From Bryoerythrophyllum caledonicum (taxonomy: Eukaryota; Streptophyta; Bryopsida; Pottiales; Pottiaceae): DNA of 64,000 nucleotides. Positions 6,515 through 37,665 of the stretch are shown one piece after another; position 1 is the first letter of the stretch; each line of letters opens with the position of its first letter. The stretch lies in contig OZ020514.1 of the NCBI GenBank assembly GCA_963971425.1, forward strand, positions 47,993,788 to 48,057,787, read 5' to 3'. Made by a program: the position numbers and the translations under genes. The notes beneath the pieces were generated by a model. It ran no database searches. It was not told where the DNA came from and saw nothing but the letters and a program-made list of their open reading frames with translations.

Positions 6515-7885
6515 GACTTTTATACATTCCACTACGTATGTCAAATAAATCATTGGGTTGAGTTGCATTTTTAGATTTATACATTCCACTTCACTTAAAG
6601 AAAAAATAAACAAATGACGCATGTCAAATAAATCACTGGGGTGAGTTGCATTTTGGATTTATACATTCCACTATACTTAAAGAAGAAATAAAATCAATGA
6701 CGTATGTCAAATAAACCATTTGGATGAGTTGCATTTTGGATTTATACATTCCACTACACTTAAAGAATAAAATATACGAATGTCGCATGTCAAATATATC
6801 ATTTGGGTGAGTTGCATTTTGGATTTATACATTCCACTTCACTTAAAGAAAAAATAAACGAATGACGCATGTCAAATATATCACTAGGGTGAGTTGCATT
6901 TTAGATTTATACATTCCACTACACTTAAAGAAAAAAAATATACGAATGACGCATGTCAAATATATCATTGGGATGAGTTGCATTTTGGATTTATACATTC
7001 CATTTCACTTAAAGAAAAAACAAACGAATGACGCATGTCAAATATATCACTGGGATAAGTTGCATTTTAGATTTATTCATTCCACTTCACTTAAAGAAAA
7101 AAAAAAACCAATGACGTATGTCAAATAAATCATTTGGGTGGGTTGCATTTTGGATTTAAACATTCCACTTCACTTAAAGAAAAAATAAACGAATGACGCA
7201 TGTCAAATATATCACTTGGGTGAGTTGCATTTTGGATTTATACATTCCACTATACTTAAAGAAAAAATAAAACCAATGACGTATGTCAAATAAATCATTG
7301 GGATGAGTTGCATTTTGGATTTATACATTCCACTTCACTTAAAGAAAAAATAAAGAAATGATGCATGTCAAATATATCATTGGGGTGAGTTGCATTTTGG
7401 ATTTATACATTCCACTTCACTTAAAGAAAAAATAAACGAATGATGCATGTCAAATATATCACTGGGGTGAGTTGCATTTTAGATTTTTACATTCCACTAC
7501 ACTTAAAGAAAAAAATATACGAATGTCGCATGTCAAATATATCATTGGAGTATGTTGCATTTTGGATTTATACATTCCACTTCACTTAAAGAAAAAATAA
7601 ACGAATGACGCATGTCAAATATATCATTGGGGTGAGTTGCATTTTAGATTTATACATTCCACTATACTTAAAGAAAAAATAAAACCAATGACGAATGTCA
7701 AATAAATCATTTTGGTGAGTGGCATTTTGGATTTATACATTCCACTTCACTTTAAGAAAAAATAAACGAATGACGCATGTCAAATATATCACTTGGGTGA
7801 GTTGCATTTTAGATTTTTACATTCTACTACACTTAAGGAAAAAAATAAACGAATGACGCATGTCAAATATATCATTTGGGTGAGA
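6515..7885. repeat. Satellite of about 83 bp, roughly 16 tandem copies
   Basis: Each unit contains GAGTTGCATTTTGGATTT, then ACATTCCACT, an A-rich stretch and ATGACGCATGTCAAATA. Successive GAGTTGCATTTT motifs occur about every 82-85 bases (for example near 6555, 6640, 6726, 6809 and 7800). Copies differ at a few positions and by small indels. The ORF at 6862-7128 is a translation of this satellite and not a gene. Confidence 0.9.
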
Positions 7886-18190: not shown

Positions 18191-18712
18191 CTATTATTGA
18201 TACCCGTCGTTTCAACCGAAGCAGGTTTTTTATTAGTGCTTTTCAAAATAAAATTTGTTTGACATATTATATTTTAAATTGCAATTTGCATCCCTCGGAA
18301 TGTAGTGCGTTGATCTGCGAAACGTCGTCATTCCGTACGGTAAGTATAGCACGACCGCTGAAGTTCTCGGGCACAATTGCTTCGAGGTCAGTAATTCCTC
18401 CATAGACGGGATTGATCAAGCCGTTCAAGGTGTGATTAAGGGTTTTTAGGGTTTTTTTGGGTTTTTAGGATTTTAGGGTTTTAGGGTTTAAGGGTTTTAT
18501 GGTTTTTATAGATTTTAGGATTTTTGGGTTTTCAGGGTTTTAGGGTTATAGGGTTTTTAGGATTTTAGGGACTTTAGGGTTTTAGGGTTTTTAGGGGTTT
18601 CTAGGGTTTTTTGGATTTTGGATTTAAGGATTTATAGGGTTTTCAGGATTAGGGTTTGGATTAGGATTAGGGAGCGACAGACAGACAGACTGTCGCTTAT
18701 TATATAGGTAGA
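18191..18712 (-). mobile_element. Small non-autonomous Helitron
   Basis: On the minus strand the 5' end begins TCTACCTATATAATAAGCGA immediately after a host A. The 3' end reads GACGGGTATCAATAATAG followed by T. The ends match those of the plus-strand element at 47351-47972: the TCTACTTATATAATAGGCG start and the GACGGGTACCAACCCTAG end. The terminal tetranucleotide is ATAG where CTAG is expected, presumably one substitution. The element is 522 bp and non-coding. Its body holds the telomere-like block. Confidence 0.6.
18430..18665. repeat. Telomere-like TTTTAGGG/TTTAGGG block inside the Helitron
   Basis: Irregular tandem copies of GGGTTTTAGGGTTTTTAGGG. TTTAGGG is the canonical plant telomere unit and TTTTAGGG a green-algal variant. 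Here the units are irregular and interstitial, so this is a telomere-like minisatellite carried by a transposon and not a chromosome end. Confidence 0.75.
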
Positions 18713-19870
18713 TAGCATATGTATATAATATAGCATATGATTGTCTTCTATTAAATGAAAGAGGTGGAGATGAAACATGGTGATGACACGTGGTAGATAT
18801 CCGATATCTGCCACTTGTTATCACCTAGATTACCTCAACGGTCCCTTTTATTATTCAAGAGTAACTATTTACATTAGATACATGTTATTTACATTAGGTA
18901 TTCAAGAAAATTACTTTAGATATCTATCCTTTATTTTGTATACTTAGAGAAGTACTGAAGGAGGTATTGCCACATATCATCACTGGGATTATCCCCACAA
19001 TTATTATTAAATTACAATACATACAATATATACCACACAATATTTCATTACAATACATATAGTGTGTATAACATTATAATGCTTCTAGTACAACATTTGT
19101 ACATTCCCATATATAATGCATATCTCAATAAATAAAAATAGCACATATAATCATATGTGGTACATATATTGTATATCATTTGGTACATATAATAAGAAAT
19201 TTATGTACGATATATATAAATACAAACATGATATTGTAAATATAGCCTATGGTATATACAATATGTATATACAACAATACACAATATATTCATATTCAAT
19301 GTGTAAATTTTTATAATAGAAAATATTTATAGTATTTACAATACACATATTAACAACATAAAATGATAGTATATATAATATATTTGGCATATGGTATTTA
19401 ATTTTCCAATATTTGTATTTAATATATTCCAAATCTACTATACACTTGGAACCAAATAGCAAAAGGTTCAATTAGTACATAATATAAATTATACACATGA
19501 TACAAAAGCTTTAATTAGTATTTTCTTTTAATAATGTATAATATAAAGTGTATGTAGTATAATTTGTACATGGTATAGATAGTAAATTGGTTTTGTTAGT
19601 ACTTACTATAAATACTATAATTAGCATATAGTGAAGATAGTATAATTAGGATATGGTATAGATAGTATAATTAGTTCTAAGTGAAAAGAGTCTAATTCGT
19701 TCATATGTGACTGATTTAATTGGTTTATAATATGAAAAGTATAATTACTACATATTATAAATAGTACAATTGGTACTTAGCATAAAATATTTAATTAGTT
19801 AATAGTACAAATGGTACATTGTATAAAGGTTTAATTACTATATAATATAAAGAGTATAATTGGTATATAT
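18713..19870. repeat. AT-rich satellite flanking the 17.7-kb element (left)
   Basis: Diffuse repeats of the type TAGTATAATTAGTACATA and CATATTGTATATCATTTGGT. The same motifs resume on the right flank (37590-37665 and 38220-38400), which suggests the large element landed in this satellite. No gene is present. Confidence 0.6.
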
Positions 19871-19894
19871 GCCACATTTAACTAAATTTGGACT
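19871..19894 (+). repeat. Left terminal inverted repeat of the large element
   Basis: It begins GCCACATTTAACTAAAT and pairs with 37562-37585. Immediately inside is a perfect short hairpin (GGACTTTTAAAAGTCC). Confidence 0.75.
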
Positions 19895-20884
19895 TTTAAA
19901 AGTCCAGATTGGTCAAAGTCCCGATTTGTTAAAAGAATACCCAATAAAAATATGCAATGACGTGCTTCGAAGGATCCTACGAAGAATACAACTTATGCAT
20001 GATATATCAAAGGACTCAACCAGTTGTAGACCATACTTAATGTGAGAAGAGTCCCAGCTGTGGAGATAGTAGGATCCTTCGATCCCATTCATCCCTGCAA
20101 GACCCACAGAATCCTACCTCCTCGGTCTACTAGCAATAAAGGGAAAACAAGATGCAAGTAAGTACAAAACGCAAGATTAAAGAGCTTGAATCGGTTGGAA
20201 CGTGTAAAGTAGGATAGAAGTAGTGTAGGGGGTAAATAAAGTTACTCAAAAAAGAATATACATTTCATAAGTTCAATGGCAAAGCCAAGAGATGGGTACA
20301 TAGTGGCGACAGATGTCAAAAACCACGATCAACAGCTATAGAGAAACAATATCGTAGGATCCTACGATCTGTGTCGATGACCTGTTAAAGAGAACTTCAG
20401 CCGTAGGATCGGAGTAAGCAGCCCAGTGGGGTCGAAACTGTCGAATGTTGTGAAAGTGTAGACTTGGTAGCTTTGAAGGAACTAGATTGTAGGATCCTAC
20501 AATGTGGGTTGACTAGTTCTAGGAGATGATGACCAATGAAAAATAATTGTTCGGTTGTCTTCTAATCCTGGTTGCAAGATCGCCTTCGCATCAAGGGTCC
20601 GCTGCGTTTGCAGCTTCCAAGTTAGCCAACGCTGCTAATCGGTCTCTCCTTGGAATAGATCGAGTCTGGGGATTCGTTCTTCCCGACGAGGATGCAAATA
20701 CAATTGAGTTGACATGCATTTGTACAGGCCGTTGACGTTTGGGAATCCAGGTGTCTTCCCAACAGTTTTCATACTTCTTCTACGAGTTCTTGAATGCATT
20801 TCTTGGTTCGCAGAATTGGACAATGAACATTCCGAACTCCGCATGTCCTCTTTCGCAGTTCACTGTTGAGCAAGCTCTCCCCAT

Positions 20885-23800
20885 CTAGACGGGATATATA
20901 TGGAGATCGCTTGGACGAATATACACCCATGACCACGGTACGATATGTCGCCATGGATTCAAGGGGTCCTTCGGTCTCTCCTTCATGGGGCCGCAATACG
21001 GTTCAGGAGAGTCATCTTCAGGTAGGTCATCTTGACCTGTGATAAGGCATAGCGGATCTAGATCAGTAGCTCTCAAAACCTGACTTGGCCAGAAACCTTC
21101 TACCAATGCCGCAGGAATAAAAGGCAGAGATTTTTCCAGTTCTGCAAGTATTGCACTCCAGTACTCAATATATGGAGGAAAATCCCTTGCCCAACCAGTA
21201 CAATAGCGCATTCCCTCCTGCCAAAACTTAATATAACCTTGAATTCCTGACTTGATGAACGACCTCTTCTCAACCGCCTTCAAAGCCTTCTCTCTAGCCT
21301 TGTCTTGGTTGCCGGTGGTAGAGATAGTTATATCGCCCCACAAGTATCTGAAAGGAATCGGATTGGGCAGACCAATAGGTATCATGGGATTCCCATCTGC
21401 GTCCTGCTTCCAAAAACAAATACCTGGCTTATCTTTATGCAGCTAGTAGGAATCAACAACCAATTCCTTAAATCGCATGACTGGCCACCCTTCTTTGTCA
21501 ACATAGAATTTCAAGAGGTGCATCTCTCCGAGGCCCGTAATCCTATCAAAACCATCACGGATATAACCTTTAACAAAAGATTTAAAATCTGCTACCTCTT
21601 GGACAAACTCAGGCATGAAACTCATGTCCTCCGATTTCATGAAGGCCATCATCAAATCCGCCACAACAGAAGTATTTTGATCCTTCAACGTCTTCAACAA
21701 GTGGCTAAAATAAGCGTCAATATCCTCATGGGTGTGCCCCACTAATAAGAATCCAACTTGGATTTCCTTGAACACACCTCGATGAGTTAGCATAGATAAG
21801 AATGCCATGAGGAATTGATTCTTATTTTCCTTCGCAGAGTTGTCCAACTGCAGGTACAACTTTTCGAGTAGGGGAATGGGGTCTGCAGAGGTATTCAACA
21901 CCGCCGCCAACAAGTTCATGCATCTGGACTTCTCTCTTAGCATTGCTTCAAAAAAAGAATTGGCAGGTGCGTAAGGAAACATTCTACCAGTTTCACGCAT
22001 AGGTGGTTCCTACAGACGCTGGAGCAATCTTGCAAGGGAGGAAATAGTATATTAGAGTCCCCCGGCCAAAGGTCGGAGGAATAGTGGGCGTAGGCACCAT
22101 CTCCATGTCCGTGCGTCACCATACTGGTGACGTTAACTGGGAACAGACCAAGGGGGGAAGTGAGTTTGGTGTTAATTCGCATACGAGGGATAGGGGTCTT
22201 CGCTGTATCCATTTTATTGTGGATTATACACAGGATTCTACCCTCCCTTATCTTAGATTCCTCCCGCCAAGTATGGTGCACACGCCTACACGATGCTTGG
22301 AGGTTATAGTGAGCCAATTTCTGTTTCACGAACAAATTATATTTAGGTGATCCCTTAACCAACCTCCCAATGTACTGTTGTAGAGTGTCACAGAGGGTGC
22401 ATTTTGCGAAAGAACTCCCGACCGGTTTAATTGCAACATTATTAAAGTGCTCCCTCTTCATTCTACTAACGGCCGATTGGGATACGGGCGGTAACCCGTA
22501 CTGGAGATTAGTCTGCAATTTTGTCAAATTAAAGTTATGAGAAACTAAAAGAGCATGTGATACAGTAAGGACCACTATGTAAAGAAATGATCATAGGATC
22601 CCACAATACAAGACCACACAAACATCCCATAATCTTATATACAATGAATGGCGAACTAATTATAACCTCCGTAGCTGCAGCTTGAATCATCTTCCTCTTC
22701 TGACCAAAGGCCAAGAACTTCGGGGTGTTCATCCGCGTTGGTGTTGTTGACCTCATCTGATTTGGCATTTGATCAGCACATTCATCGACTATGGCCGTAA
22801 TACTACCGAGGGCTTGCATGGTTCCAAGTCGTGGACGTTTAATGTCCTTGTTACCGTGCGTCAAGGACACAACTCCCTTCTTGTATTGGTTCATATACTC
22901 ATGGAATGTTGACTTTGCGATGCCATGAATCTTATACCAAGCGGTAGCGCAGACGTCCTGCCAACACAATGTAACAAACTTTCGTTTCCGATTATTACCG
23001 ACAATCGTCGAAATTCTTCAGCCAGAATTTCGTCCGGTTGTATAGGGTATCCTGGGGTTTGAATACTCGAACGCACTCATCTGGACAGCACGAATGTGAA
23101 CTCATAGCCTGAATCACTTCCAAGAGCATCTTCTTAGCAAAAGCGTTGAGCTTCTCATCAGTACGCTTCCTGCGGGCAACAAAACGGTATGGTGATTTCT
23201 TGCCGCCGCCCAGGTGCGCAATCGGGTCAGCAACCTCTGGAATTCGGTCGAAATGGGCAATAGTATCGCGTAGACTATGTCCACCCTCGAACGAACACTC
23301 TCCAATGGGCCAACGTCGGTAACTCATAATATCACTTGGATCTCCTATAAAAACATCGAACACCGTGACTCCAATGTAACCCTCGCCCAATGTGCCGTGC
23401 TCAAACGGTTCCTTAGGACCGACGCAATTAATGCGACCGGATGACAATAGATCACCACTGCCATTGAAGCGTGCCACAATTTTTTCCTTCCATACCATGC
23501 GAGGTAGAAATGGGATACCGTCTCGACCATCAGAGTCGGCACGTATGTCGGAAGTGAGAACAAGGCTTTGAGACATCCACATGATCGTTCTACCAAGCGA
23601 ATCAGTGAAGACAGGAAGGCTATCCTCCATCGGCAGAAGGAGAAGACTTCGAGCCACAGGATATATGACGGTCGGCCTGACGAGACTGAAGTTGCCGAAG
23701 GTTTGATCCGTATCAACGCCCAGCCATGTCCTAGAGACAACGGCTTCGATGATCATGGCTTCTCCAACCACACCGTGACCAACATAGGAAAGAAATACGG

Positions 23801-23889
23801 ACTCACCCGGTTCGAAAGGTGCAGGTCCGTCGGCCTCGCCATCTTCAGGGTTTGTAGTCTCGGGACTAGAAGAGAGCAATTCATCCATG
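20885..23889 (-). pseudogene. DUF7869-like protein, candidate transposase of the large element
   Basis: Exon A (23889 to about 22986) encodes an unrecognised N-terminal region, starting at an ATG two bases from a palindrome copy. Exon B (to 22667) carries WQDVCATAWYKIHGIAKS and HGNKDIKRPR. Exon C (from 22512, after TTGCAG) carries KCTLCD, IIHNKMDTAKTPIPRM and WPGDSN, then LQLDNSAKENKNQFLMAFLS and LLVGHTHEDIDAYFSHL, and a long C-terminal tail. These blocks are those I associate with the uncharacterised DUF7869 family. The acidic sites MDTAKT, QLDNS and HEDID could form a DDD/E-type active site, but this is not established. The intron 22666-22513 contains a palindrome. Frame changes near 22985 and 22050 and TAG stops at 22010 and 21443 (both compatible with former CAG) indicate decay. 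That it is the transposase is inferred from its position and conserved acids. Confidence 0.6.
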
Positions 23890-23891
23890 AT

Positions 23892-24213
23892 ATCGTAGGA
23901 TCCTACAATGGTATGGCCCGCTTGCAATACGTCCAGAAAACTTGATATGTACTACCCACACAAAATCAGTATGTAATGAGTGATGAAATCGATGCAGGTG
24001 TCTTGAGTACAAAGCATACAATGTTGTCTTATCGTAGGATCCTACGATCTACATTGGGAAGTTAGTGAATTGCTCCGCAATCTCTATCGTAGGATCCTAC
24101 GATCTACATTGGAAAGTTAGTGAATTACTCCGCAATCTCTATCGTAGAATCCTACGATATCCGGTGCGGATGTGCTGAAAGACACCGTGATATTTATCGT
24201 AGGATCCTACGAT
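23892..24213. promoter_or_regulatory. Cluster of five palindromes upstream of the DUF7869-like gene
   Basis: Copies at 23892, 24031, 24086, 24141 and 24196. The three from 24031 to 24141 are spaced exactly 55 bases apart with the intervening sequence also repeated (CTACATTGGGAAGTTAGTGA). The first lies directly before the putative ATG at 23889. The placement suggests an operator or promoter role, or a binding array for the element's own protein. Confidence 0.5.
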
Positions 24214-24318
24214 AACTGAAGAAGTCCGTCCGTTTAAATGTAGATTTGTCTACACACATTCACAAGAAAGAGTCGTCCGTACACACATACATCGGTGAAT
24301 TGACATCGTAAGAGTAGC
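24214..24318. other. Leader side of the spacer
   Basis: Short non-coding stretch between the palindrome cluster and the tandem duplication. It could hold the minus-strand gene's promoter; no TATA box is convincing. Confidence 0.3.
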
Positions 24319-24815
24319 GAAGGGAAGATCCACCCCTCACACGATGACAAATACTAATACAATGACCATACGAATTGAAGAATCGCCTCAATTCCATAAA
24401 ACAACAGGAAACGGATCAAAAGTAGAAGCAGCACCTACAGCTGCAACCGAAGAGATGACAAGATTGGCACCCTTTCCCACGTTGATGACCTTGAATGCAA
24501 TGCTGGAATCGCCAATCGCTCAACTCCACGCGCTCCACGCCATAGGCTGAACTCCTAAATTGCTATAGAAGGGAAGATCCACGCCTCACACGATGACAAA
24601 TACTAGTACAATGACCATACGAATTGAAGAATTGCCTCAATTCCATTAAACAGCAGGAAACGGATCAAAAGTAGAAGCAGCACCTACAGCTGCAAGCGAA
24701 CAGATGACGAGACTGGCACCCTTTCCCACGTTGATGACCTTGAATGCAATGCTGGAATCGCCAATCGCTCAACTCCACGCGCTCCACGCCATAGGCTGAA
24801 CTCCTAAACTGTGAT
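24319..24815. repeat. Tandem duplication of about 249 bp, two copies
   Basis: Both copies begin GAAGGGAAGATCCAC and end near GGCTGAACTCCTAAA, with few differences. A small plus-strand ORF (24344-24550) exists only in the first copy; the second has a stop (CATTAAACAG), so it is unlikely to be a gene. More diverged related sequence continues to about 25130. Confidence 0.8.
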
Positions 24816-25339
24816 AGAAGCCTCCGAAACCTAATAACCAAGGAGGTGTTCAGTTAAGGCGGAAATAAGGTCAGGGACGAAGGGGAGTAGACAATTCAGC
24901 AGAAACTGTAGTAAATCCAGAATCAACACCAGGTACAAGAGCGAGAGGAAAGTTGATAAAACCGGCTCCATTGACAGCTTGTTGACGTCCTCGACTGCGA
25001 TGCTGGAATGCGATGCGAACGTGTGACGACAGAAACCTCCGAATCAACATTTAGAGGTATTCAAGTAAAGAGGAAATGAGGTTACGGAGGAAGAGGGAGT
25101 AGGAAGTCAGGCGCTTGAGCAAGCCTTGGAATCAAGAAGTTTTTTCCCTCCATCGGGGGCACGGGACTTCAATCATTACAGAGAGTGGTATACGTGATTA
25201 TCGGAATATCAAATAACATAATCAATTACTATATAGAATACTGTTTACAGTGCCGACGATGAACAATCATGATCATCCACCTGTACTATGTGTAACATCC
25301 AACTACGTGTAATGATTACATTTAGGCATGCCGTCGGGT

Positions 25340-25610
25340 ACATGGCTTTCGTCCACGGCTTTCGTCCAGGGTTTGCATTCAAGGTTTACGTCCAGGGTTT
25401 ACAGTTTAGGATTTACGTTTGAGGACTAGGATTTAGGATTTAGGTATAGAATGAGGGTTTAGGTTAATCACAAACATCCGGGATTTAGGATCAGGATAAT
25501 ATTCTTTGACAAATTTAAACAAATAGAGAAAAATTAAGTTATAGGTTTAGGGTATAGGTTAGGGGTTGCATATAGGTTTAGGGTATAGGGTTTATGGTAA
25601 ATGACTTTGT
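25340..25610. repeat. Degenerate telomere-like GGTTTAGGGT motifs
   Basis: Irregular runs of GGATTTAGG, GGTTTAGGGTATAGG and similar. They resemble the block within the small Helitron at 18.4 kb but are more diverged and lie inside the large element. Confidence 0.55.
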
Positions 25611-25879
25611 CTTATTTATGTGATTTACATAATCTATGTTAATATGTTCAATGTGATATGATATATAAATTGTCTGTAAATAATTATGTATTACATACAT
25701 AATTGTATGTATATAAGTACGTATTAAATTTTGTATTTAACGTAAATGTCTCATTTATGTATTTTACATAATTAATGTAATAAAACGTATGTATACATAA
25801 TTGTATGTTGTATATATATAAAAATTGCCTAGTACATATTGTTTTATGCATATATGATTGTCTGAAATATATGTATATA

Positions 25880-26475
25880 TAAAAGTAGAAGTCATAAGTA
25901 GTAGTTAAAAGTTAAAAAGTTAAAAGTAGAGATTAAAAAGATGAAACTAGAAATTAAAAGTAGAAATTAAAAAGTTAAAAGTATAAATTAAAAAATTAAA
26001 AGTAGAAATCAAAAAAATTAAAGTTAAAAGGAGAAGGTAAAAAGTATAAATTAAAAAGTTAAATGTAGAAATTAACTAAAAGTTAAAAAGTTAGAGGTAA
26101 AGGAAGAAGGTAAAAAGTAGAAGGTGAAAATTGGAAATATATTGTCTATTTGTATGTACGTATATATGATGTATGTATGTATAAATGTATATAATGTATA
26201 TATATATAAAGAAAATGAATGAATGAATAGTTGTATGTTGCATATATATAAATATAAATATATATATTTAAAATATATATATACATATATATATATACAT
26301 ATATATATATACATATATATATAACGTATCAATCCATAATTATTGTATGGTGCATATATGTACAAAATGTATGTATGTATCATTGTATGTTGTATAAATA
26401 GATATAAATCGTATGGAGATATAATTGAATGTTGTGTATATATATATAACATCAATGTATGTATAGTTGTATGTT

Positions 26476-26509
<34 letters not shown>

Positions 26510-28750
26510 CATGTTTCCATATATAATTATTGTATGCAGAATATATGTACAAAATGTATGAATGTATAATTGTATGTTGTCTACATAGATACAAATCTTA
26601 TGGACATATAATTGTATGTTGCATATATATAAATAACATCTGGGTATGTCTAGTTGTATGTTGAATATATAAATAATTATATAAAATGTACCGATATATA
26701 ATTTTCGTATGTTGTATATATGTACAAAATGTATGTATGTATAATTGTATGTTGTAAAAATAGATATAAATCATATGGAGATATAATCGTATGTTGTATA
26801 TAAATAGATAACCTTTGTGTATGTATAGTTGTATGTTGGATATAAAAATAATTATATAAAATGTACCGATATATAATTCTTGGATGCAGAATATATGTAC
26901 AAAATGTATGTATGTATAATTGTATGTTGAATAAATAGATATGAATCGTATGGAGATATAATTGTATGTCGTGTATATGTATATAACATTTGTGTATGTA
27001 TTATATATGTTGGATAAATATATAATTATATAAAATGTACCGATATATAATTTTGGTATGTTGTATATATGAACAAAATGTATGTATGTATAATTATATG
27101 TTGTATAAATAGATATGAATCGTATGGAGATGTAATTATATGTTGCCTATAAATATATAACATCTTTGTATGTATACTTGTATGTTGGATATAAAAATAA
27201 TTATATAAAATGTACCGATATATAATTCTTGAATGTTGTATGTATGTTTCAAATGTATGAATGTATCATTGTATGTTGTATAAATAGATATGAATCGTAT
27301 GGAGATATAATTGTATGTTTATTTATGTAGATAATATCTGTGTATGTATAGTTGTATGTTGGATGTATATATGAATATATAGAATCATGTATCGATATAT
27401 AATTATTGTATTCAGTATATATGTACAAAATGTATGTTTGTATAATTGTATGTTATATAAATAGATGTAAATCGTATGGAGATATAATTGTATGTTGTTT
27501 ACATATGTATAACATCTGTGGTTTTTTGGCTACTTGATCCATAGTGTTTAGCCTCGGAAGGGGGGAAATACTTCTAGCTTACTAATTCCTCGTTGGTGGG
27601 CATGGTCTTAGTAGTGTCAAGTACAAGTTAGAAGTACAAGTCAAAAAGTTATAGTTGGAAGTTAAAGTTTAAAATTAAATTCAAAAGTTGAAGTTAAAAG
27701 TAGAAGTCATAAGTAGTAGTTAAAAGTTTAAAAGTTAAAAGTAGAAATTAAAAAGGTAAAACTAGAAATTAAAAGTAGAGATTATAAAGTTCAAAGTTGA
27801 AGGGAAAAAGTGAAAAGTAGAAATTGAGTAGAAGTCAAAAAGTCAAAGTTAAAAGTAGAAGATAAAAAGTAGAAGGTAAAAAGTTAGAAGCAGAAGTTAA
27901 AAACTTAAAAGTAGATATTAAAAAATTAAAAGTAGAAATTAACTAGAAGTTAAAAAGTTAAAGTAAAGGTAAAAAATAGACGGTAAAAATTAAAAAATAG
28001 AAATTAGGTAGAACTTAAAAAGTTAAAGTAAAGGTAAAAAATATACGGTAAAAAGAAAAAAGTAGAAATTAGGTAGAACTTAAAAAGTTAAAGTAAAGGT
28101 AAAAAGTAGAAGTTAAAAAGAATAAAATAGAAATTAGGTAGAACTTAAAAAGTTAAAGTAAAGGTGAAAAGTAGAAGTTAAAAAGAATAAAATAGAAATT
28201 AGGTAGAACTTAAAAAGTTAAAGTAAAGGTAAAAAGTAGAAGGTAAAAAGAAAAAAGTAGAAATTTAATAGAATTTAAAAAGTTGAAGTATAGGTAAAAA
28301 GTGGAAGGTAAAAAGAAAATAGTAGAAATTAGGTAGAACTTAAAAAGTTAAAGTAAAGGTAAAAAGTAGACGGTAAAAAGAGAAAAGTAGAAATTAGGTA
28401 GAATTAAAAAAGTTGAAGTAAAGGTAAAAAGTAGAAGGTAAAAAGAAAAAAGTAGAAATTAGGTAGAACTTAAAAAGTTAAAGTAAAGGTAAAAAATTGA
28501 AGGTAAAAAAAAAGTAGAAATTAGGTAGAAGTTAAAAAGTTAAAGTAGAAGGTAAAAAGTAGGACGTAAAAAGTTAAAAGTTGAAATTACCTAGAAGTTA
28601 AAATGTTGAACTTAAAAGTAGAAGGTAAAAAGTAGAAGGTTAAAAGTTAAAAAATAGAAATGAAAATTTAAAAAGTAGAAATTTAGTAGTAGGTAAAAAG
28701 TTAAAGTGAAAAGTAGAAGGTCAAAAGTTGAAGGTACAAATTAAAGTGAG
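25880..28750. repeat. Minisatellite spacer between the divergent gene blocks
   Basis: Three sub-blocks. 25890-26120 and 27620-28750 are purine-rich arrays of AAAAGTTAAAAGTAGAAG; in the second the unit is about 60 bp and includes AAATTAGGTAGAACTTAAAA. 26150-27530 is an AT-rich array with a unit of about 176 bp containing GTATGTTGTATAAATAGAT and CGTATGGAGATATAATTG, at least six copies. The ORFs here are repeat translations. The region separates the two transcription units of the large element. Confidence 0.85.
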
Positions 28751-29570
28751 AAGTGAGATGTTACTTGAATAATTTGTGAATATCACTAGTATTATACGTA
28801 TTAATTAATGATGTACTTAATGGACGGCTGAAATCTAACATGCCACCCGAGTCGAGAAATCCTACGATCGAGACCGAGCTCAAGACGTCGCGTTCAGTCA
28901 TAAGTACATGAATCATTTCGTCACGCACCTCTGCCATCGTGGAGGCGCGATTGTTTTTTCCATCATTTCGTACTTTCTCCTCTCTCGACTCCCACGCTCT
29001 CACCTCCCTCACTTTCTTTTCGCACAGCTTTTCCTCTCTTTTGTGTTTTGTGTAGTTTTTTTTCACGCTTCTTCTACAAAGGTCTGTCTGTGTGGTGTGA
29101 AGTGTAGTCGTGAGGTTTGTTTGTGTGAGTGAGCGTGAGCGCTAGGGAGAGTTTGTGTGAGGTCGCATTGTTTATGTGAGTTCGTGTTCATTGTGTTACT
29201 GTGCATTTTGTGTTCATGTGTGAGGGTTTTAGGTGACAAATGTTTGTTGGTGTTTTAGGCGCGTTTGTGTGCCACATTTTTTTAGACACTATTTGTACTG
29301 GTTGTGTGATTGGAGTGAGCGTGAGTGACTGTATGTGTCTTCTTGTGTGAGGATTTTAGGTGATTTTTGTTTGTGAGTGTTTTAGGTGGGTGTTAGGTGA
29401 GTTTGCATATTTAAGCGAGGTCAGGTGGACGTGACTCCTGCCTTAGAAGACGAGCGGACGCGTGTATCTTTAACTGACGACGATTGGAGCTGGAAAATTG
29501 AGGAAGCAAGTGCAGTCCAGTCCTCTCCAAGTGAATTGCTGCATATTGTAAGCAGAGGATCACAACGATC
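28751..29570 (+). promoter_or_regulatory. Probable 5' region of the ParB-like gene
   Basis: Unique sequence between the minisatellites and the first ATG at 29571. It contains a palindrome half site at 28858, a strongly pyrimidine-rich stretch (about 28975-29035) and a GT-rich stretch (29080-29400), as often seen in plant 5' leaders. I see no certain TATA box. The small ORFs are not supported. Confidence 0.4.
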
Positions 29571-29605
29571 ATGGCCGGCATGGACGATCCTGAGTGGAAT
29601 TTCAC

Positions 29606-30689
29606 GTGAGTACCATAAATCCATTGATTTTGTATGTATGTATGGCTTGTAGTCACGTTATACAATCAGCAAGATATTATTCATATCTAATATTAGAAAC
29701 CAAATCGATGTTGTTCGCTTGATATATCGTATGGGAATCAGTTTGCTCTAGGGTTCTTGCTAACGTTAGTCAAGTGAATAGGGTTTTATGGTTAATATCA
29801 CCTGATGTTCTGAAGTTCATATTACAGTCTTGTTTGTATTGCAAGTTCATATCGTAGGATCCTACAATATCAGCACTGGAGAGGTCAATTAGATTTGTGG
29901 GTTGCTAAGGTTAGTATCGTCCGAAACTCGCAAGTTTATATTACAATCCATCGCACTTTGGAAGTTCATATCGTAGGATCATACGATATCAGCCAAATGG
30001 TCAGTCAGGTTTCTGGGTTTTGAGGTAAATATCACCAAAGTTGTATGTTACATATTACAAACCTGCTCTCTTTGCAAGTTCATATCGTAGGATCCTACGA
30101 TATCAGCCGAAAAGGTCAACTAAATTTAGGGTATGATAAGGTTACTGGGTCCGAAGTAGTTTAGTTCATTTTCCAATCATGCTCTGTTTGCAAGTTCATA
30201 TCGTAGGCTCCTACGTTAGCAGCCGGAAGACGTTGTTATTTCTGGTATCATAAGATGATATCGTCGTTTGCTATTGTAGGATCCTACGATGGTGTGGCAG
30301 GCCACGCCATCGTCGAATCCTTCATTATATCCCTCTGCAAACTGAATAATCCATCGTAGGATCCTACGATGACACCTTCATCACAAATGATTTTTATAGC
30401 AGGGTGATCAGAAATGTGCAAGGTTTGATCAGAGATCGTAGGATCCTACGATGGCAATGGGCACTAAGATCCGGGACTAGAGATCTTAGCATCCTACAAT
30501 ATCAAAAGGCACGAAATGTGCATCGTGCCTTTTGATATTGTAGGATGCTAAGATCTCTAGTCGCGGATCTTAGTGCCCATTGCCATCGTAGGATCCTACG
30601 ATCTCTGATCTTGGATCTAAGTCATTAACCTGCGCACTAGTACGGAGGCAATCTGTTGCAATTCCTAATTCTTTGTCTTTACTGTGTAG
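29606..30689 (+). other. Intron 1 of the ParB-like gene, with a palindrome array
   Basis: The donor GTGAGT follows codon bases AC and the acceptor TGTGTAG precedes G, restoring the frame. Inside, four units of about 117 bp (29851-30217) each carry GCAAGTTCATATCGTAGG with a palindrome, followed by palindromes at 30273, 30353, 30435 and 30585. This is the densest site cluster in the element. Confidence 0.65.
30427..30610. repeat. Near-perfect inverted repeat with arms of about 88 bp
   Basis: It runs from GATCAGAGATCG to CGATCTCTGATC, centred near 30518, with a tiny loop (AATGTGCA) and about one mismatch. A perfect 18-bp palindrome lies near each outer end (30435, 30585) and a half site near the middle of each arm. 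It could fold as a large hairpin or cruciform. Confidence 0.9.
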
Positions 30690-33600
30690 GGAAAATTTTA
30701 AGGAGGTGGATGAAGTCGATGAGGACTGGCGTCCAGTTAACCTGATCGACTGCATTTTGCTTGCAATTTGTGAGGTGAATCGACCTCTCCATACACACGC
30801 CTAGGTGTTGCAATATTATGTGGCAGAGAACGTCATCGAATGGGGTCTACAATGGACTATCGCACCATTGAACGAAGCTCTGGTTGCGCCCATAATGTGC
30901 CTGACGAATCCAGCAGCCATTGTAGGGGAGTTGTTCACATGTTCAATAAAGAACCTGGAGGTTCTTGACATTGCGCTTGCTGGTGCGAACATGATGATCG
31001 TAGTGATCGAGGAGGACGTTCTTAGTGTTGGCTATAAGCGGGTGTATGCACTGATTGTGAAGACGGAGTCGTTAGCCCCGAGACTGAACGAATCTGTGAA
31101 AGACTACGGCATGACAGTTCTTTCGCAGAACATGAAGCCAGACAGAATCGTCAGCGGCTGGAAGGAGCTGAAGAGTCACCGGGACCGCTACAACAGAGAC
31201 TTGGTCAAGCCCGTAGCGCCTTCTCCATCGGGGAAGAAGAAGAGGAGCAGTTCCGCGTTGGCGAAGACAGATACACGGAAGAATACGAAGAAGACTCGAG
31301 GTAACAAGGAGGACCAGATGACATTGGAGGAAGCCATTGCATTAACGAGCAAGAAGGTGTACTCGGCGAGCCCGGAGTCTATCCTAAGAGTGAAGCAACA
31401 GTACGAGGCAAATTTTCGTGACCCGCACGTCTTCGGGACAAAGCCAACCAAGATTTCGGGATCGTTGAAGGAGGACCTTTTTGTCGACATCAACCGCCTC
31501 CATCGCGCACCGCCTGGGACTGTTGTTTATCGATCCCTCGTAAGGGTTCGGGTCCTAGAGCTCCTTCAACAGTTGAGAACAAACCCCTTCCAGCTTGCGC
31601 TGCAGCATATCTACGTCATGCTGGTGATGGGCCAATACCGTGTGAGGGATGAAGATTACGAGGACATTCCTCATAACATGTACAGGTATTTCGAGCAGAA
31701 GCCGACGTGGGCTGACATCACGAATGACACGCACTATGTCATCATTGGAGGGCAACATAGTGTTGCTGCGCACGTGATCTTGATCGGCGAAGGGGGATTG
31801 AGTGACGAGGCGAAGGAAGATGCGACTAAATTCCAAGTAACAATTCTCTGGGAGGATCCAAAGAAGAAGTGGGAGATGATGCAGCTGTACTCCAGAGTAC
31901 TTAACCAAGACCTTGCTGGATCCAGGGCAGAGAGAAATTACATTCGGTGCTGTAAGATTGCTCGGAAGACTTGGGTTGAAATGGTATGTCCTGAGAAAGC
32001 AAGGAAAGGGCAGCCAAAACATGCAAACTTTGTTGTGAGTATTCTATTCCTTCCGCATTTACCATTATGCACTATCGTAGGATCCTACGATAGTAGATAG
32101 TTCTTTTATTGTGTGACTGTCTTGTAGGATCCTACGATGAAGTTAACATTGTTGGCACTTATTGTACAGTTATTTCAGTCGAAACTCTCGACAATCATGC
32201 CCAGGAAGAAGGCAAAGGATGACGCGGCGACGAGTATTTTTAAATACCCTCTGCTCTTCGTTCCAGAGGATATCTTCGTCATGTGGGAGACGATTGAGTA
32301 GCGATGGATGAGCGGATTGCTCCCTGATCCATGGAATAGGACGTCAAGCTTGGTCGGCCTTGAAGACGAAGACATGGAGCAAGATATCACCGGGACATCG
32401 CAGCACGAACGAGTGAAGCAGCGTCATATGACCTCCAGATCATTAATGCCAAATGATTTACAGCCCTTGTATTTTCTCTGGGACAGTGACAATAGGGTCA
32501 TCGCAAGGAAGGTCATTGACAAGGAAATCTCCGTGAAACTGACGAAGGCGTCGAAGATTCCTGCCACGGTGACTTCGCTTGAATTTGCGTGCAAGCAACA
32601 GAAGAGGAAGAGAATTCTAAAGAACGAATTCATGCATGTCATGTGTAATGCGCCGCTGAGATCTAAGAAGCTGAAGGGACTCCCCTACACTGAGGCCGAG
32701 TGGGATGAAGCAGTAGCAAAATACAAGATTACGGACGACGTTGTGGAGACGTGGTTTCATATGGTGAACAAGGATCCTGGCGGCGAGAAGTTCTTTCTAT
32801 GTCGCGAGCAACTGAACGCATCTTCTAAGGACGAAGATCGGATCGAAATCCTAGACACGCTATTCAAGCACCAGAAGACGGTCTCCGAGGGTAGCGCTCA
32901 GGAACTGGAATTTGGCTCATCTTCCGCGACAGACTTCGAGAAGCAGTACAAGGTAATGTACATGAACAGGGGGAAGGGCAACCTGAAGAAGACTATTGAT
33001 CTGGAAGGCGACACTATGAACTCCTGGATGAAGGCCGACTCACAGGTGGTTATTGTCTACTGCTTTGTCAATCGGAAGGACAAAGGTATTGCAGACTACT
33101 CCACTACAGAGCATTTGAATCGAACGATGCAAGCTATGGAGTATAGAGATAGTAGCCAGTTCAGACGGGCCCAATACCCGGGAGTGTTCATTACCAACCG
33201 GGAGGGCATGGTGGACGTTGCGAATATCGTATTCGAGAGAGGGTCTGTGATTAAGCAGCAGTGACCTTGGCACGTCCTTCCGACATTATATATGACGTTG
33301 GGCATCGAGTGCTTTACGCAGCTGCCATCTCCGGAGGCTACGTGTCCACTGTATTTCAACTTCATGTTCGGGAACGAGGCGAAACATGATTTAAAAGCTT
33401 GCTTCACCAACGCCTTCGGCAACGATATGCCGTTTACTAGTGTGGTTAATGTAGCAGACTTTCTTAATGCTTCCCGTCAGTGGGACCAGCCTACTTATGC
33501 GAATTTCAATCTTGACGCGGTCTCCTCGATTTTGGCTACATTGGGAGCCCCCAAATACGTCCTGATCAACGTCGGCAGCGGTCCAAGCATCACCTGGATT

Positions 33601-34784
33601 GGTCGGGTAAGTCTATTGTAGGATTCTACGATCATTGAACTTCATCTCTTTGTAGTGCACTGCCTCATTCATACCTTGTACTTAAAGAATGTCTTCTGCA
33701 GACAGAAGGAGCACAAGTCTTAGAAGTTGTTTACTCCAAGAGCGAGGTGAAGAAAGCTCTGGAGACTTCCAGCAAGATCTATGACACCAGTCGAGCGCTG
33801 GCTTTGGCACTACCCGAGCAAGAACCTTCGACATCCCGGAAGAAGCAGCAGAAGGGGAAGGAAAGGCAGTTGGATTCGTCGAGCGATGACACGACGGAGG
33901 ATGAAGTTGTAGAGCTTGACAGCTCTGACTTGGATGACAACGATGACGAGGACAATGGTAGTGGCGACGAGGAGGAAGGGGATGGTGATGGGGGAGGTCA
34001 TCAGGGGAGGGGAGACATTGCGGCGGAGGACGAGGACGCGAATTCTAGTGGAGATGCTTCTCCTCCTCAGGAAACGCCTTCTGAGGAAGATGTTCCTCCT
34101 CCTAGGGCGACAAGGAGTACCGCGAGGCCTAAGCAACGGGTCCAACGGTTGAAAACGTGCACCATGCCTCTGACTAGGTTGACAAGTGGGAAAGCGTCCA
34201 AGCAAGAAAGCTCAGACCGAGAAGGGGATGAAGGAGTCTGCCGCCAAGGAAGTGTCCAAGGGAGCTCGGCCTTCTAAGCGGAAGTTAGAATCCGTTGCCA
34301 AGCAAGTGTCCAAGGAAGCTCGGCCTCCTAAGTGGAAGCTGGAGTCCGTCCCCAAGCAAGCAAACAAAGAAGATCAGGCTAGTAAGCTGGAGGCCACTGC
34401 TAAGCAAGCAGTCAAGGATGCCCACACGAGTAAGCCGAAGAAGGATTTGTTTGGCCGGAGCCAAGTATGACCTAGAGGCTTTCTCCGAACTCTGTTACCA
34501 GGCACATTTTTGGATTGGCCGTTTTAGAACTTTTGTTACCAGACAGATTTGTAAATAATTGTACCATGGGCTTGTGACCTGTTATTCAATGCATAATATA
34601 TTTTTCTAGTATTCTTCATTTCCACAATGAGTGTTATAGAATTTCACAACATTGTAATCGAACTTTCCTCCAGGTATCGTAGGATCCTACAAGGGTCTTC
34701 GGATTGTAAGAACCTGCGAACTCTTCCATTCTCTTTGATGTTTAATATCCTCTATATTCCATTGTTTCGTGGACGCAGTTGACA

Positions 34785-36174
34785 ATGGACTACCCGGATC
34801 TACTCTTGGACGCACAGCCTGCGAGAGACACATGCGTTGTGTTACCTCCTACAGATTCAGCAGTGAATGAACCCTACGATTTTGAGGATCAAGGAATAAT
34901 AGATCAGGAAGGTCTTACGGACGGGCGAGGGATTCTAGAGGAGATCCGTGCTGATTCTCTCCCTAGTTTGGGAAGCAGACCATGGCAACTGTTGAGTCCC
35001 ACTCTTCTTTGGGGCCTTCGACGACGGTGGATGACTCTACGGCTCGAGCATCGGACAGTGGCGCAGTTATATCCGCTGCGGATGTATTAGCTAGCTTCGT
35101 TGCGGTTGTCCCCACAATGGAGACCGTCGATACTATTGCTTCGACGATCGCGCAAGAGGTACTTGCTGGCTTGTTAGAAGAGGCGAGTCAGGAAATATTG
35201 CCATTGAGCCCTGTGAAGCAGACTCCGACATTGATTACAGAGGAGAAGTTTAGCGACGTCCCTTAGACTTCCGTCAAAGACCAAGAGGCTCAGAGCTCCT
35301 GTGAAGCTAATTCTGGTCGCGACCAAGGACCACAAGGTATACCACTTCCCTCCGCTAATTCATGTAAAACTTTGGTCTTGATCGTAGGATCCTACGATCT
35401 TTGGATCCTCATCGTAGGATCCTACGATCCTCCCGTCCAACCATATCATTTATCCCACCAGCGTCCTTGTTCCTAACCACTATGTCTTCTGTAAACGTAT
35501 TGTGTATTCCAGTGTCTTACGTGAAATGACGGGCTGTTGTAGGAAACATATGTGCGGACATTGTAAAGATATCGCCTCTGACCAACAAGGTGAGATTGCC
35601 TCAATACACCGTTATCTTGGACTTGAACGGATTTCTCGTTCACATGAAGGATAATAACAGACAAAGTATCCCTAGACCCGGTAGTGCACAATTTCTGAAC
35701 ACCCTGAATGATCTGGCTACTGTTGTAGTATGGAGTTGCGCCGTCGAGAGAAACGTGCGTAAGATGCTGGAGAAAGTCCTCGGATCTGATATGATGGAGG
35801 GCATAGTAATCATGACACAGGATCATACGACAAGATCCTCTTTCCCAAGAGAGGAGAATAGAGATAAGCCCTACCTGCTTAAGGACGTTCAGAAAATCCC
35901 TACTATAGTTGATCACCCGGACCTGGACCTGACATTACTCATCGACGACAGCGCTGAGAAGAACCTTTTGAACGATGAGTTCAGTGCGGTTCACCCTGAA
36001 CCTTGGACAGGTGACATGAATGACAAGTTCCTCATTGACATCATGCTTCCCTGGTTAGGAAGGATGTTTAATTCCGGCCTTTCTGTGATTCAATATGTTC
36101 GTAATAATCCCCTTCCCGGATGTCCGTCTTCTACCATCTTTAGGACTTCAAAATTAACACAAAATATATATTAG
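34785..36174 (+). pseudogene. FCP1/SCP-like HAD phosphatase-like protein, first copy
   Basis: Exon 1 (34785-35336) is an acidic leader (MDYPDLLLDAQPARD) with a frame change near 34975 and a TAG at 35264. The intron 35337-35512 has a GTATAC donor and an ATTCCAG acceptor and carries two perfect palindromes; the join restores the frame. Exon 2 (35513-36174) has a TGA at 35527, then the phosphatase-like domain. It contains TVILDLNGFLVHMKDN (HAD motif I, normally DLDETLVH), VVVWSCAVERNVRKML (motif II region) and LTLLIDDSAEKN (motif IV), then a conserved PWLGRMF. FCP1-type enzymes use D-x-D-x-T/V; here the second Asp is Asn, so catalysis is doubtful. Known relatives dephosphorylate RNA polymerase II CTD or other serine phosphates. 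The role in a transposon is unknown. Confidence 0.6.
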
Positions 36175-36436
36175 GGTGTTCACGGTCATGGGACTCGAGA
36201 AAGAAGACATTTGTTTGACCACTCATTCATGTGGGTGGTGTTTGAAGTTAGAGTTTCTGTTGGACTCAACAATTTGTAAGAAACCTTGTTGTATGTAAAT
36301 AAATATTTTTTCACTATCATCTACTCAATGTCAATTTCCATTCTCTTGTACATCGTAGGATCCTGTGGTCATCCAGGTCATTGTAGCAGTTGATTTTGAT
36401 ATTGCTTACAAATGTTTTCGTTCTATATGTGCACAG

Positions 36437-37080
36437 CGTCCCCCCGAGACCTCAAGGAAAGTAATCACGGTTCTGTCAATGAACGGATTGCTTTGCTTCG
36501 AACAAGAATGCCACCCCACGACGTTTCAAGCTTGAGAACGTTATCGTGCGGCCTGGTCTCCTCGAGTTCTTCACAATACTTCTTAGGTACTTCAAAGTTG
36601 GTATATGGTCGTCTATGAATTTACCCCGCTTGAAGAAGGTTCTCAATTTTCTTCTACCTGAGGGCATCACGTCACGACTTCTTTTTTGTATGGACAAGAG
36701 CACTGTTCTAAGCCCGAGATGTATCCATACTGCGACAAGAATATATTCACATTATCAACTTACCAGAAGACGAAGCACATTTGCCTCCCTGGTCAAGTAA
36801 TGATGGTTGATGACCAACCAATGCGGCATGTCTTCAGCGGAAACTTTGCTTGTTACTTTCCGACACCCTGGCTAGGAGAAATGACTATACCTAACACGGT
36901 CGGTGTTATACTAAACATTGCGACAGCACTGATTCCGTTTATCCTCCCGCTGAGATCTTACGCATCGGTGAATCAATATCTCAGGGGGCACCCGATGGAG
37001 AAAAAGTTCCCTTGTAGACTGTTAGAAGGTTGGCACTATGACCGTGTTCTATACGGTCATGCTTATGAGAATCCATAATG
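36437..37080 (+). pseudogene. FCP1/SCP-like HAD phosphatase-like protein, second copy
   Basis: Starts after a probable acceptor (GTGCACAG). Blocks in several frames: KVITVLSMNGLLCFE (motif I, catalytic Asp lost), then RPGLLEFFTILLRYFKVGIW (the R-P-G/x-F region and motif II) and QVMMVDDQPMRHVF (motif IV), followed by PTPWLGEM. It has the same order as the gene just upstream (LLIDDSAEKN, PEPWTGDM), so this is a tandem paralogue, more diverged and broken by stops. A palindrome copy at 36352 lies between the two. The end is uncertain; another open frame runs to 37220. Confidence 0.5.
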
Positions 37081-37561
37081 TGATTGATTTTGAAGCCAGT
37101 GGTATGTTCCCAATTTATTATGTGAATAAAAATGGTGACTCACATGTTTATGCCTTCCATGTCCCTTACTATCTCGACGGTTATTACTACTTATATTCAG
37201 ACCATCATGTTCTTTTGTAGATTGGCAGCCTAAACAATCGTAGGATCCTATAGTCGTAAGCCTCTATCAATGTCTCAAATCTTCTCAGCACATATTCGTA
37301 TATGTTTACTAATCCAAATGCTTTCATGATTTGTATCGTAGGATCTTACTATATATGCCACGTATTCTGGTTTGCCACATGATACAACGTCGTCTGATGC
37401 TATTTTGAACTCTGTGATACAATTTCATATAGTATGAAGGGCAATTCATAGCAAAAGAAAATTTTTGTAGTCCTATTTCTTTGTTTATAGTTTAACATCG
37501 TACTATCCCACGATCTTCACTCCATATTGATTTTTGACTCTAAGTCCAGATATCCTCAAAT

Positions 37562-37585
37562 AGTCCAGATTTAGTTAAATGTGGC
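37562..37585 (-). repeat. Right terminal inverted repeat of the large element
   Basis: Reverse complement of the left end with one mismatch (T/C near position 18). A further AGTCCAGAT motif lies just inside at about 37545, echoing the same motif inside the left end. Confidence 0.75.
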
Positions 37586-37665
37586 ATATATAATATAAAA
37601 GGTTTGATTTGTACTTTGTATAAATAGTACAATTAGAATATAGTACAAATTATATAATTAGAATA

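Follow-up and report, generated by a model that had tools for sequence, protein, structure and literature searches.

Why would an 18-bp palindrome recur some thirty times in one stretch of a moss genome and be missing from the DNA around it? The question is raised by a 64,000-nucleotide window of the Bryoerythrophyllum caledonicum genome (contig OZ020514.1, positions 47,993,788 to 48,057,787; "the window" hereafter means this whole stretch), in which the palindromes are confined to a transposon that we call lineage A. The element carries a minus-strand gene, M, which is probably the transposase judging by its DUF7869 domain, and a plus-strand gene, R, whose product is a candidate lineage-specific DNA binder. 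We put at roughly 0.55 the probability that a homodimer of an element-encoded protein, likely R, binds at the palindromes, recognizes its own lineage and acts in anti-silencing.

At up to three mismatches the 18-mer (ATCGTAGGATCCTACGAT) matches the window at 30 places, 11 of them exact and all within 19966-37514, while 100 shuffles of the window gave a mean of 0.01 matches. A first-pass annotation had counted about 28 copies, 11 of them perfect, and none in the other 46 kb; the count has risen slightly, and the remaining 46 kb hold no match even at four mismatches. The 30 sites group into 11 clusters and lie as follows.

19966..20083, no strand: palindromes near the left end (19966, 20066)
20351..20503, no strand: palindrome pair (20351, exact, and 20486)
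22590..22607, no strand: palindrome in the M4-M3 intron (motif search)
23892..24213: five palindromes upstream of the minus-strand gene (23892, 24031, 24086, 24141, 24196), partly a 55-bp tandem array
29851..30602: ten-palindrome array upstream of R1 (29851, 29970, 30084, 30200, 30273, 30353, 30435, 30483, 30537, 30585)
32074..32138, no strand: two palindromes in the R1-R2 intron (motif search)
33615..33632, no strand: palindrome directly 3' of R3 (motif search)
34676..34693, no strand: palindrome between R4 and R5 (motif search)
35381..35428, no strand: two exact palindromes upstream of the NIF-like gene (motif search)
36352..36369, no strand: palindrome between the NIF-like gene and R6 (motif search)
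37237..37514, no strand: three degenerate palindromes near the right end (37237, 37335, 37497; motif search)

The annotation had also described the copies as sitting in unrelated contexts, most of them not simply as parts of larger duplications. That holds for part of them. Several others lie within local duplications, namely 55-bp units at 24031-24213, units of about 115 bp at 29851-30217, 30-bp units at 35381/35411 and an 88-nt inverted duplication (99%) at 30427-30610, which carries four palindromes and of which about 30426-30518 is missing from the other copies aligned there. These duplications lend some weight to the view that the palindromes are functionless repeats, propagated through duplication and gene conversion, which we nonetheless regard as highly improbable. 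One observation against it is that none of the 30 palindromes in the window copy overlaps conserved coding DNA, delimited by hand from protein alignments as 7187 of the 17,719 nt of the element. The chance of all clusters falling outside coding DNA is, as a plain estimate, about 0.43^11 = 1e-4; a permutation (0/20,000) gave too strong a result, since the long array seldom fits into non-coding DNA. The element and its genes are laid out below; loci fetched for comparison carry L numbers and contigs C numbers.

19869..37587, no strand: whole lineage A transposon, 17,719 bp, ATGCCACATTT...AAATGTGGCAT, from inverted repeats, termini compared across copies and blast to copies
left copy 19865..19868, right copy 37588-37591, no strand: 4-bp target-site duplication ATAT, from the sequence
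19869..19897, plus: left terminal inverted repeat (TIR), 34 nt including flank, 94% complementary
37559..37587, minus: right TIR, from inverted-repeat detection, termini comparison and a genome-wide end search
20885..23888, minus: M gene, fragments M5-M1, DUF7869 (Pfam PF25273, E=3.4e-37 in M2), conserved across lineages; this copy appears interrupted from its frames
30805..34277, plus: R gene, R1-R4, fast-evolving, no Pfam match; this copy looks decayed
35590..36171, plus: NIF/FCP1-like phosphatase-fold gene (PF03031, E=9.3e-16; Tim50 in PDB, E=0.0028)
36686..37078, plus: R6 gene, 59% identical in L038 and 62% in L026

The ends of the element are ATGCCACATTTAACTAAAT in inverted orientation. 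Because ATAT flanks this copy on both sides, and TTAC and AAGG do so at the other two copies whose left and right ends were read, the target duplication is 4 bp in three cases out of three. The 437-Mb assembly (894 contigs) contains 203+198 terminal repeats at up to two mismatches, in several sequence variants, and none in the reversed control. Many other copies are broken up by stop codons, as the window copy appears to be from its frames, and the family looks like one of mostly decayed copies.

The exact 18-mer is present at 220 places genome-wide, and its reversed control at none. The loci that we fetched cover 49 of the first 50 places listed among the 220 (C1:29606739 lies outside), and all 50 exact copies in them are in element sequence: 48 lie within 60 bp of element homology detected with the motif masked in the query, and the remaining two (L023) are in a stretch that aligns to the unmasked element. 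At up to three mismatches, 171 of the 181 copies in these loci are within 60 bp of such homology. The motif is thus restricted to relatives of the element throughout the loci examined.

Related lineages carry palindromes of their own. We compared eight loci beside variant terminal repeats, L038 (a further stretch of the L032 element) and four loci with R1 relatives. The M-gene region aligns to the window in six of the eight variant-end loci, with 71-77% nucleotide identity in the longest piece; for L026 the alignment is limited to the R6 region and the ends, and for L030 to the ends. The palindrome of lineage C is GATCGTAAGATC(C/T)TACGATC, those of lineage B are GATCGGTAGATCTTCCTATC, GATCGGAATATATTCCTATC and variants, that of lineage E is GACCGGAGGATCCTCCGGTC and that of lineage F is GATCGGGAGCGCACCCGATC, and lineage G has a weakly defined motif near GATCGATGGATCCATCGATC. 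With that of lineage A they share a frame of 18-20 bp, GAYCG-NNN-core-NNN-CGRTC, in which the central four bases (GATC, ATAT or GCGC) are self-complementary. The retention of dyad symmetry across lineages of different sequence is a second point against functionless repeats.

Five motifs (A, B, C, E and F) were tabulated by locus at up to four mismatches, with shuffled means of 0-0.4. The table sets B and F apart, with 23 F matches and none of the other four in L031, and 11 B, one each of A, C and E, and no F in L027. L026, whose TCTAGACT end is like that of L027, has 4 B, and L030, whose CGACATTT end is like that of L031, has 3 F. The A and C motifs are one base apart and inseparable in the table (12 and 12 in L029). 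The A and E motifs are exactly four mismatches apart, so that each is counted as the other; 12 A sites in the window element and 2-8 in five other A loci score as E, and L038 (14 E, 6 A, 1 C, 7 F) and L032 (4 E, 1 A) are to be read in this light. The F matches of L038 may come from a neighboring F element. Two distant DUF7869 loci have one B match (L034) and none (L035). Genome-wide, the E motif, derived from five sites in 4 kb, has 108 matches at up to one mismatch, and among those listed most cluster away from A clusters; the C motif has 78+69 exact strand matches and the F motif 179+185 strand matches at up to one mismatch. All three controls gave 0. Tandem arrays of lineage motifs are also found in L031 and L039-L042. 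Two further candidates, a CAATGGATCCATTG motif in L026 and a ACACGAGCTCGTGT array in L030, were not confirmed as motifs of any lineage. L030:1605-2371, in an element with a CGACATTT end, is a 46-bp tandem array of GCTCGTGTGATCTTC units with no clear palindrome.

The different palindromes occupy matching positions. The M4-M3 intron holds the lineage's own palindrome in all six loci compared (the window, L027, L029, L031, L032 and L033), and by eye the unaligned intron sequences around the replaced palindromes have no other clear similarity, which is again difficult to reconcile with functionless repeats. As in lineage A, lineage E has its own palindrome in the R1-R2 interval (L038:2034), 2 bp after R3 (L038:3552), twice before the NIF-like gene (L038:5447 and 5537) and between that gene and R6 (L038:6441); further L038 matches, at 4496 and 7310, have no slot counterpart assigned. 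Arrays of other motifs lie upstream of R1 in L038-L042, and 69 of 71 motif matches in six other-lineage loci fall outside tblastn coding spans. Shared architecture, switching bases and slots rewritten together call for a recognizer that acts in trans and evolves alongside its sites. Since related lineages within a single genome have distinct palindromes, a host factor is unlikely in this role.

The motif also follows the protein lineage and the terminal-repeat variant. A search with the R1 protein yielded 103 matches, grouped by identity band, 96 of which were classed by start coordinate; the others were six second fragments of counted copies and one C-type match on C52. An A motif lies within 8 kb of 7/7 A-type R1 copies and of 0/17 copies of other types on the part of C1 below 34.49 Mb, over which the listing of A places is complete. 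Up to C10:2.5 Mb, the limit of the C listing, a C motif lies within 8 kb of 20 of 26 C-type copies, none of 28 A-type copies and one of 29 others. The E motif is near 2/32 copies classed as other and near none of the A-type (0/30) or C-type (0/34). At the termini, a table of 74 ends on C1, among 100 ends listed, was scored for motifs A, C, E and F, without B. The F motif accompanies 9 of 10 CGACATTT ends; at the remaining one (C1:20824636), F sites with one mismatch lie 9.5 kb inward. The C motif accompanies 8 of 15 AAGTAAAT ends and the A motif 4 of 5 exact A ends. One of five CCATATTT ends has an E motif (the L032 element itself), one of 14 TCTAGACT ends has an A motif (the right end of an A copy), and all other cells are 0.

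Are the sites themselves maintained? We compared 28 of the 30 sites with three to eight other copies per site. Over all positions, divergence was 223/3168 = 0.070 in the core and 1431/16024 = 0.089 in the flanks; without CpG-type positions it was 105/2378 = 0.044 against 867/10353 = 0.084 (bootstrap 95% for the core minus flank difference, -0.059 to -0.019). Apart from methylation decay at its two CpGs, the core is therefore more conserved than its flanks, which is the last point against functionless repeats; in their favor, several degenerate sites, such as 22590 and 37237, are less conserved than their own flanks. The first-pass claim that the 18-mer stays while its surroundings diverge is accordingly right for the non-CpG core, which changes at half the flank rate, and wrong for some degenerate sites. 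Changes in the core are most often C>T at position 3 or G>A at position 16, with 32 of each, both at the CpGs. The variant at 20486 that the annotation read as a self-complementary ATTG...CAAT form appears instead to be two CpG decays, since the majority of five copies, the window included, reads ATCG...CAAT. When a majority is taken per slot, the exact 18-mer occupies 15 of the 28, whereas the window copy has it in 10 of the 28 and has therefore lost matches. Window C reads T in other copies at 889/8100 CG positions (0.110), 768/6387 CHG positions (0.120) and 1359/28378 CHH positions (0.048). The excess at CG and CHG suggests a scar of plant-type methylation and would point to past silencing.

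These data also bear on whether the palindromes act as RNA. Hairpins for splicing or small-RNA production, to which the many intronic sites might point, are the least probable of the readings that we weighed. The central four bases are self-complementary, which a loop does not need, and their low rate of change is close to that of the arms: positions 8-11, four in all, account for 36 changes, and the six positions 5-7 and 12-14 for 67. Self-complementary centers together with intergenic sites argue for DNA bound by a dimer rather than RNA.

In our favored reading, a homodimer of a transposon-encoded protein, most likely the fast-evolving R, would bind the palindromes, loading at many sites in the promoters, introns and ends of the element. 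This loading would keep or restore the whole element in an unsilenced state and so allow expression and transposition. Each lineage would have changed protein and sites together, so that the protein's action is confined to its own lineage and spares relatives and host genes. We consider anti-silencing the likeliest purpose because introns and gene starts are filled element-wide, as with the sites of the Arabidopsis protein VANC, and because copies carry methylation scars. The annotation had already proposed a dimeric binder encoded by the element. The dyad including its central four bases, the family restriction, the avoidance of coding DNA and the lineage-matched palindromes lend that proposal partial support, but scans of element proteins returned no recognizable DNA-binding domain, and we infer the identity of the binder.

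Alternatively, the palindromes may be sites at which a transposase or accessory protein gathers the element ends for transposition. Some sites do lie about 100-650 bp from both ends, and the M gene encodes the probable transposase. We find this possibility unlikely, as most sites are interior, in introns and intergenic DNA more than 1 kb from either end, the densest arrays lie upstream of the M and R genes, and sites in small introns are needless for end-pairing. A related alternative, that the palindromes are promoter or enhancer sites for an element-encoded activator that coordinates the element's genes and has no role in silencing, seems to us less likely still. It would account for the arrays upstream of M and R and the two sites upstream of the NIF-like gene, but several introns and the right-end region carry sites as well. 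Between activation and anti-silencing as such, the present observations fit both alike.

Several observations weigh against lineage-specific recognition by R. The N-terminal part of the M protein, M5, is also divergent, at 41-68% identity between lineages, and the transposase could therefore be the binder, as end-gathering would have it. Searches of R1-R3 and M5 found no recognizable DNA-binding domain or VANC homology, and two single-sequence AlphaFold models, with mean pLDDT of 35 (R1) and 42, were unusable. The B, C (in L029) and F motifs are imperfect palindromes, and a perfect palindrome for lineage G was rejected, with 0 exact and 16 one-mismatch matches genome-wide (control 0). Two of the 71 other-lineage matches fall inside tblastn spans (L031:2911, where the span extends past the exon end seen in other loci, and L032:3950). 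The association with proteins and ends is also incomplete: the exact C motif is missing within 8 kb of 6 of 26 C-type R1 copies and within 18 kb of 7 of 15 AAGTAAAT ends. In lists thinned of close neighbors, 5/25 A, 17/62 C and 25/35 E motif places have no listed R1 within 20 kb; for E, perhaps, E-type R1 copies rank below the listed matches.

Protein divergence is uneven across the element. Between lineages A and E, M1-M4 are 56-72% identical and M5 41-54%, compared with 33-50% for R1 pieces, 36% for R2, 40% for R3, 48% for the NIF-like protein and 59% for R6. Between the window and other lineages, M1-M4 pieces are 46-81% identical, M5 48-68% and R1 37-47%, with 34% for the L038 R1 fragment. 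R1 had no convincing family match in Pfam, PHROG, NCBIfam or PDB. The NIF-like gene, which has a relative in lineage E (L038), reads DLNG at the position of DxD, which we take to be the catalytic motif of the NIF/FCP1 family. One DUF7869 relative shows, by eye, the pattern D..D..DN..ENKN..GHTHEDID. DUF7869 has expanded enormously in this genome, where a first look gave 3613 candidates, of which 150 were scored, many with frames of about 1066-1092 aa; there was no match in 14 control genomes (those named are prokaryotes), and DUF7869 is not mentioned in the literature searched. Neither R1 nor the DUF7869 fragment has relatives in the viral contigs searched. A viral or phage origin of the motif was rejected: a lone IMG/VR match, on a phage-like contig in what we read as a ribonucleotide-reductase-like gene, was taken as chance.

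How does this element compare with known systems? Hosaka et al. 2017 (PMC5735166) describe VANC as binding family-specific motifs in the non-coding regions of VANDAL transposons in Arabidopsis, and this anti-silencing system of Mutator-like elements (MULEs) is also treated by Sasaki et al. 2023 (PMC10398659). The likenesses are a short motif repeated in intronic, intergenic and terminal non-coding DNA, often in tandem arrays (here 24031-24213 and 29851-30602), related families with different motifs, a variable companion protein beside a more conserved transposase, and a plant host with DNA methylation, which decay scars would indicate here. The motifs themselves differ, in that those of VANDALs are 8-9 bp in a single orientation, whereas ours are palindromes of 18-20 bp with one architecture. 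Unlike VANC, the proteins here gave no DUF1985 match by Pfam in R1-R4, M1-M5 and the NIF-like protein of the window or R6 of L038, in a scan without R5. For the moss element, binding and demethylation are proposed by analogy. Its 4-bp duplication and its terminal inverted repeats with a DUF7869 gene also differ from VANDALs, as the target duplication of MULEs is 9 bp.

Maize En/Spm, a CACTA element, offers a second comparison. Its TnpA protein binds subterminal 12-bp motifs and gathers the element ends; as proposed here, an element-encoded protein acts on a repeated motif and binding is tied to loss of methylation. Unlike those of En/Spm, our sites extend across 17.7 kb instead of being subterminal only, and the ends are ATGCCACA with a 4-bp duplication, whereas CACTA elements have CACTA termini and a 3-bp duplication. 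Bacterial ParB-parS, in which dispersed palindromic sites of about 16-20 bp lie near the gene for a dimeric binder, resembles the arrangement of palindromes near a candidate dimer-binder gene. A stretch of R1 (GGQH..AAH plus LNQDLAG) is loosely ParB-box-like by eye, but R1 as a ParB homologue was supported by no search; ParB gave no match in Pfam, PHROGs, NCBIfam or PDB at E <=10, where HMMER filters drop most matches above 0.1. The window element is thus neither VANC/VANDAL nor CACTA, and the ParB likeness is only a lead.

Other features of the window and genome were recorded in passing. Inside the element, 25859-28760 consists of AT-rich tandem arrays of 65-bp and 175-bp units, AAAGTTAAAAGTAGAAG-like, to which several other copies align. 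Just outside it, 18439-18643 is a degenerate TTTTAGGG/TTTAGGG array; 6534-7884 is a tandem repeat of 16 copies of an 82-bp unit, and 334-1821 is a 495-aa open reading frame (ORF) with a DDE_1 transposase domain (E=3.7e-7). Twenty of the 30 classed A-type R1 copies are on C1, which makes up 65.2 Mb of 437.4 Mb (15% of the genome) and is possibly a sex chromosome or another transposon-accumulating region. Genes for rbcL lie on small contigs, in L036 (C821), in L037 (C590) and on C894; L036 also has an ORF read as accD, and the L036 and L037 rbcL proteins differ and may include contamination. A PsbO gene on contig C4 has its best scores against PDB chains of spruce, spinach, pea and Arabidopsis, with those of green algae behind them, as would be expected if the host is a land plant.

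More broadly, and tentatively, these elements may represent a large superfamily of plant DNA transposons with a programmable self-recognition code against silencing, an independent VANC-like invention with a palindromic, clamp- or coat-like binder. We regard this wider proposal as possible and short of an even bet. One scaffold of GAYCG half-sites would serve a family of dimeric proteins, variable half-site bases would switch specificity, and dozens of dispersed sites would be rewritten with each change. Within the literature searched, palindromes like these are undescribed outside the VANC work, and VANC is the one well-studied transposon protein that unsilences only its own family. If our reading is true, a second such system, with an unrelated protein in another type of transposon and multiple lineage codes coexisting in a single genome, would show sequence-specific self-recognition to be more widespread as a strategy of transposons. 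It would also provide a natural series of matched protein-site pairs for reading a DNA-recognition code, and possibly a way to target chromatin states in plants.

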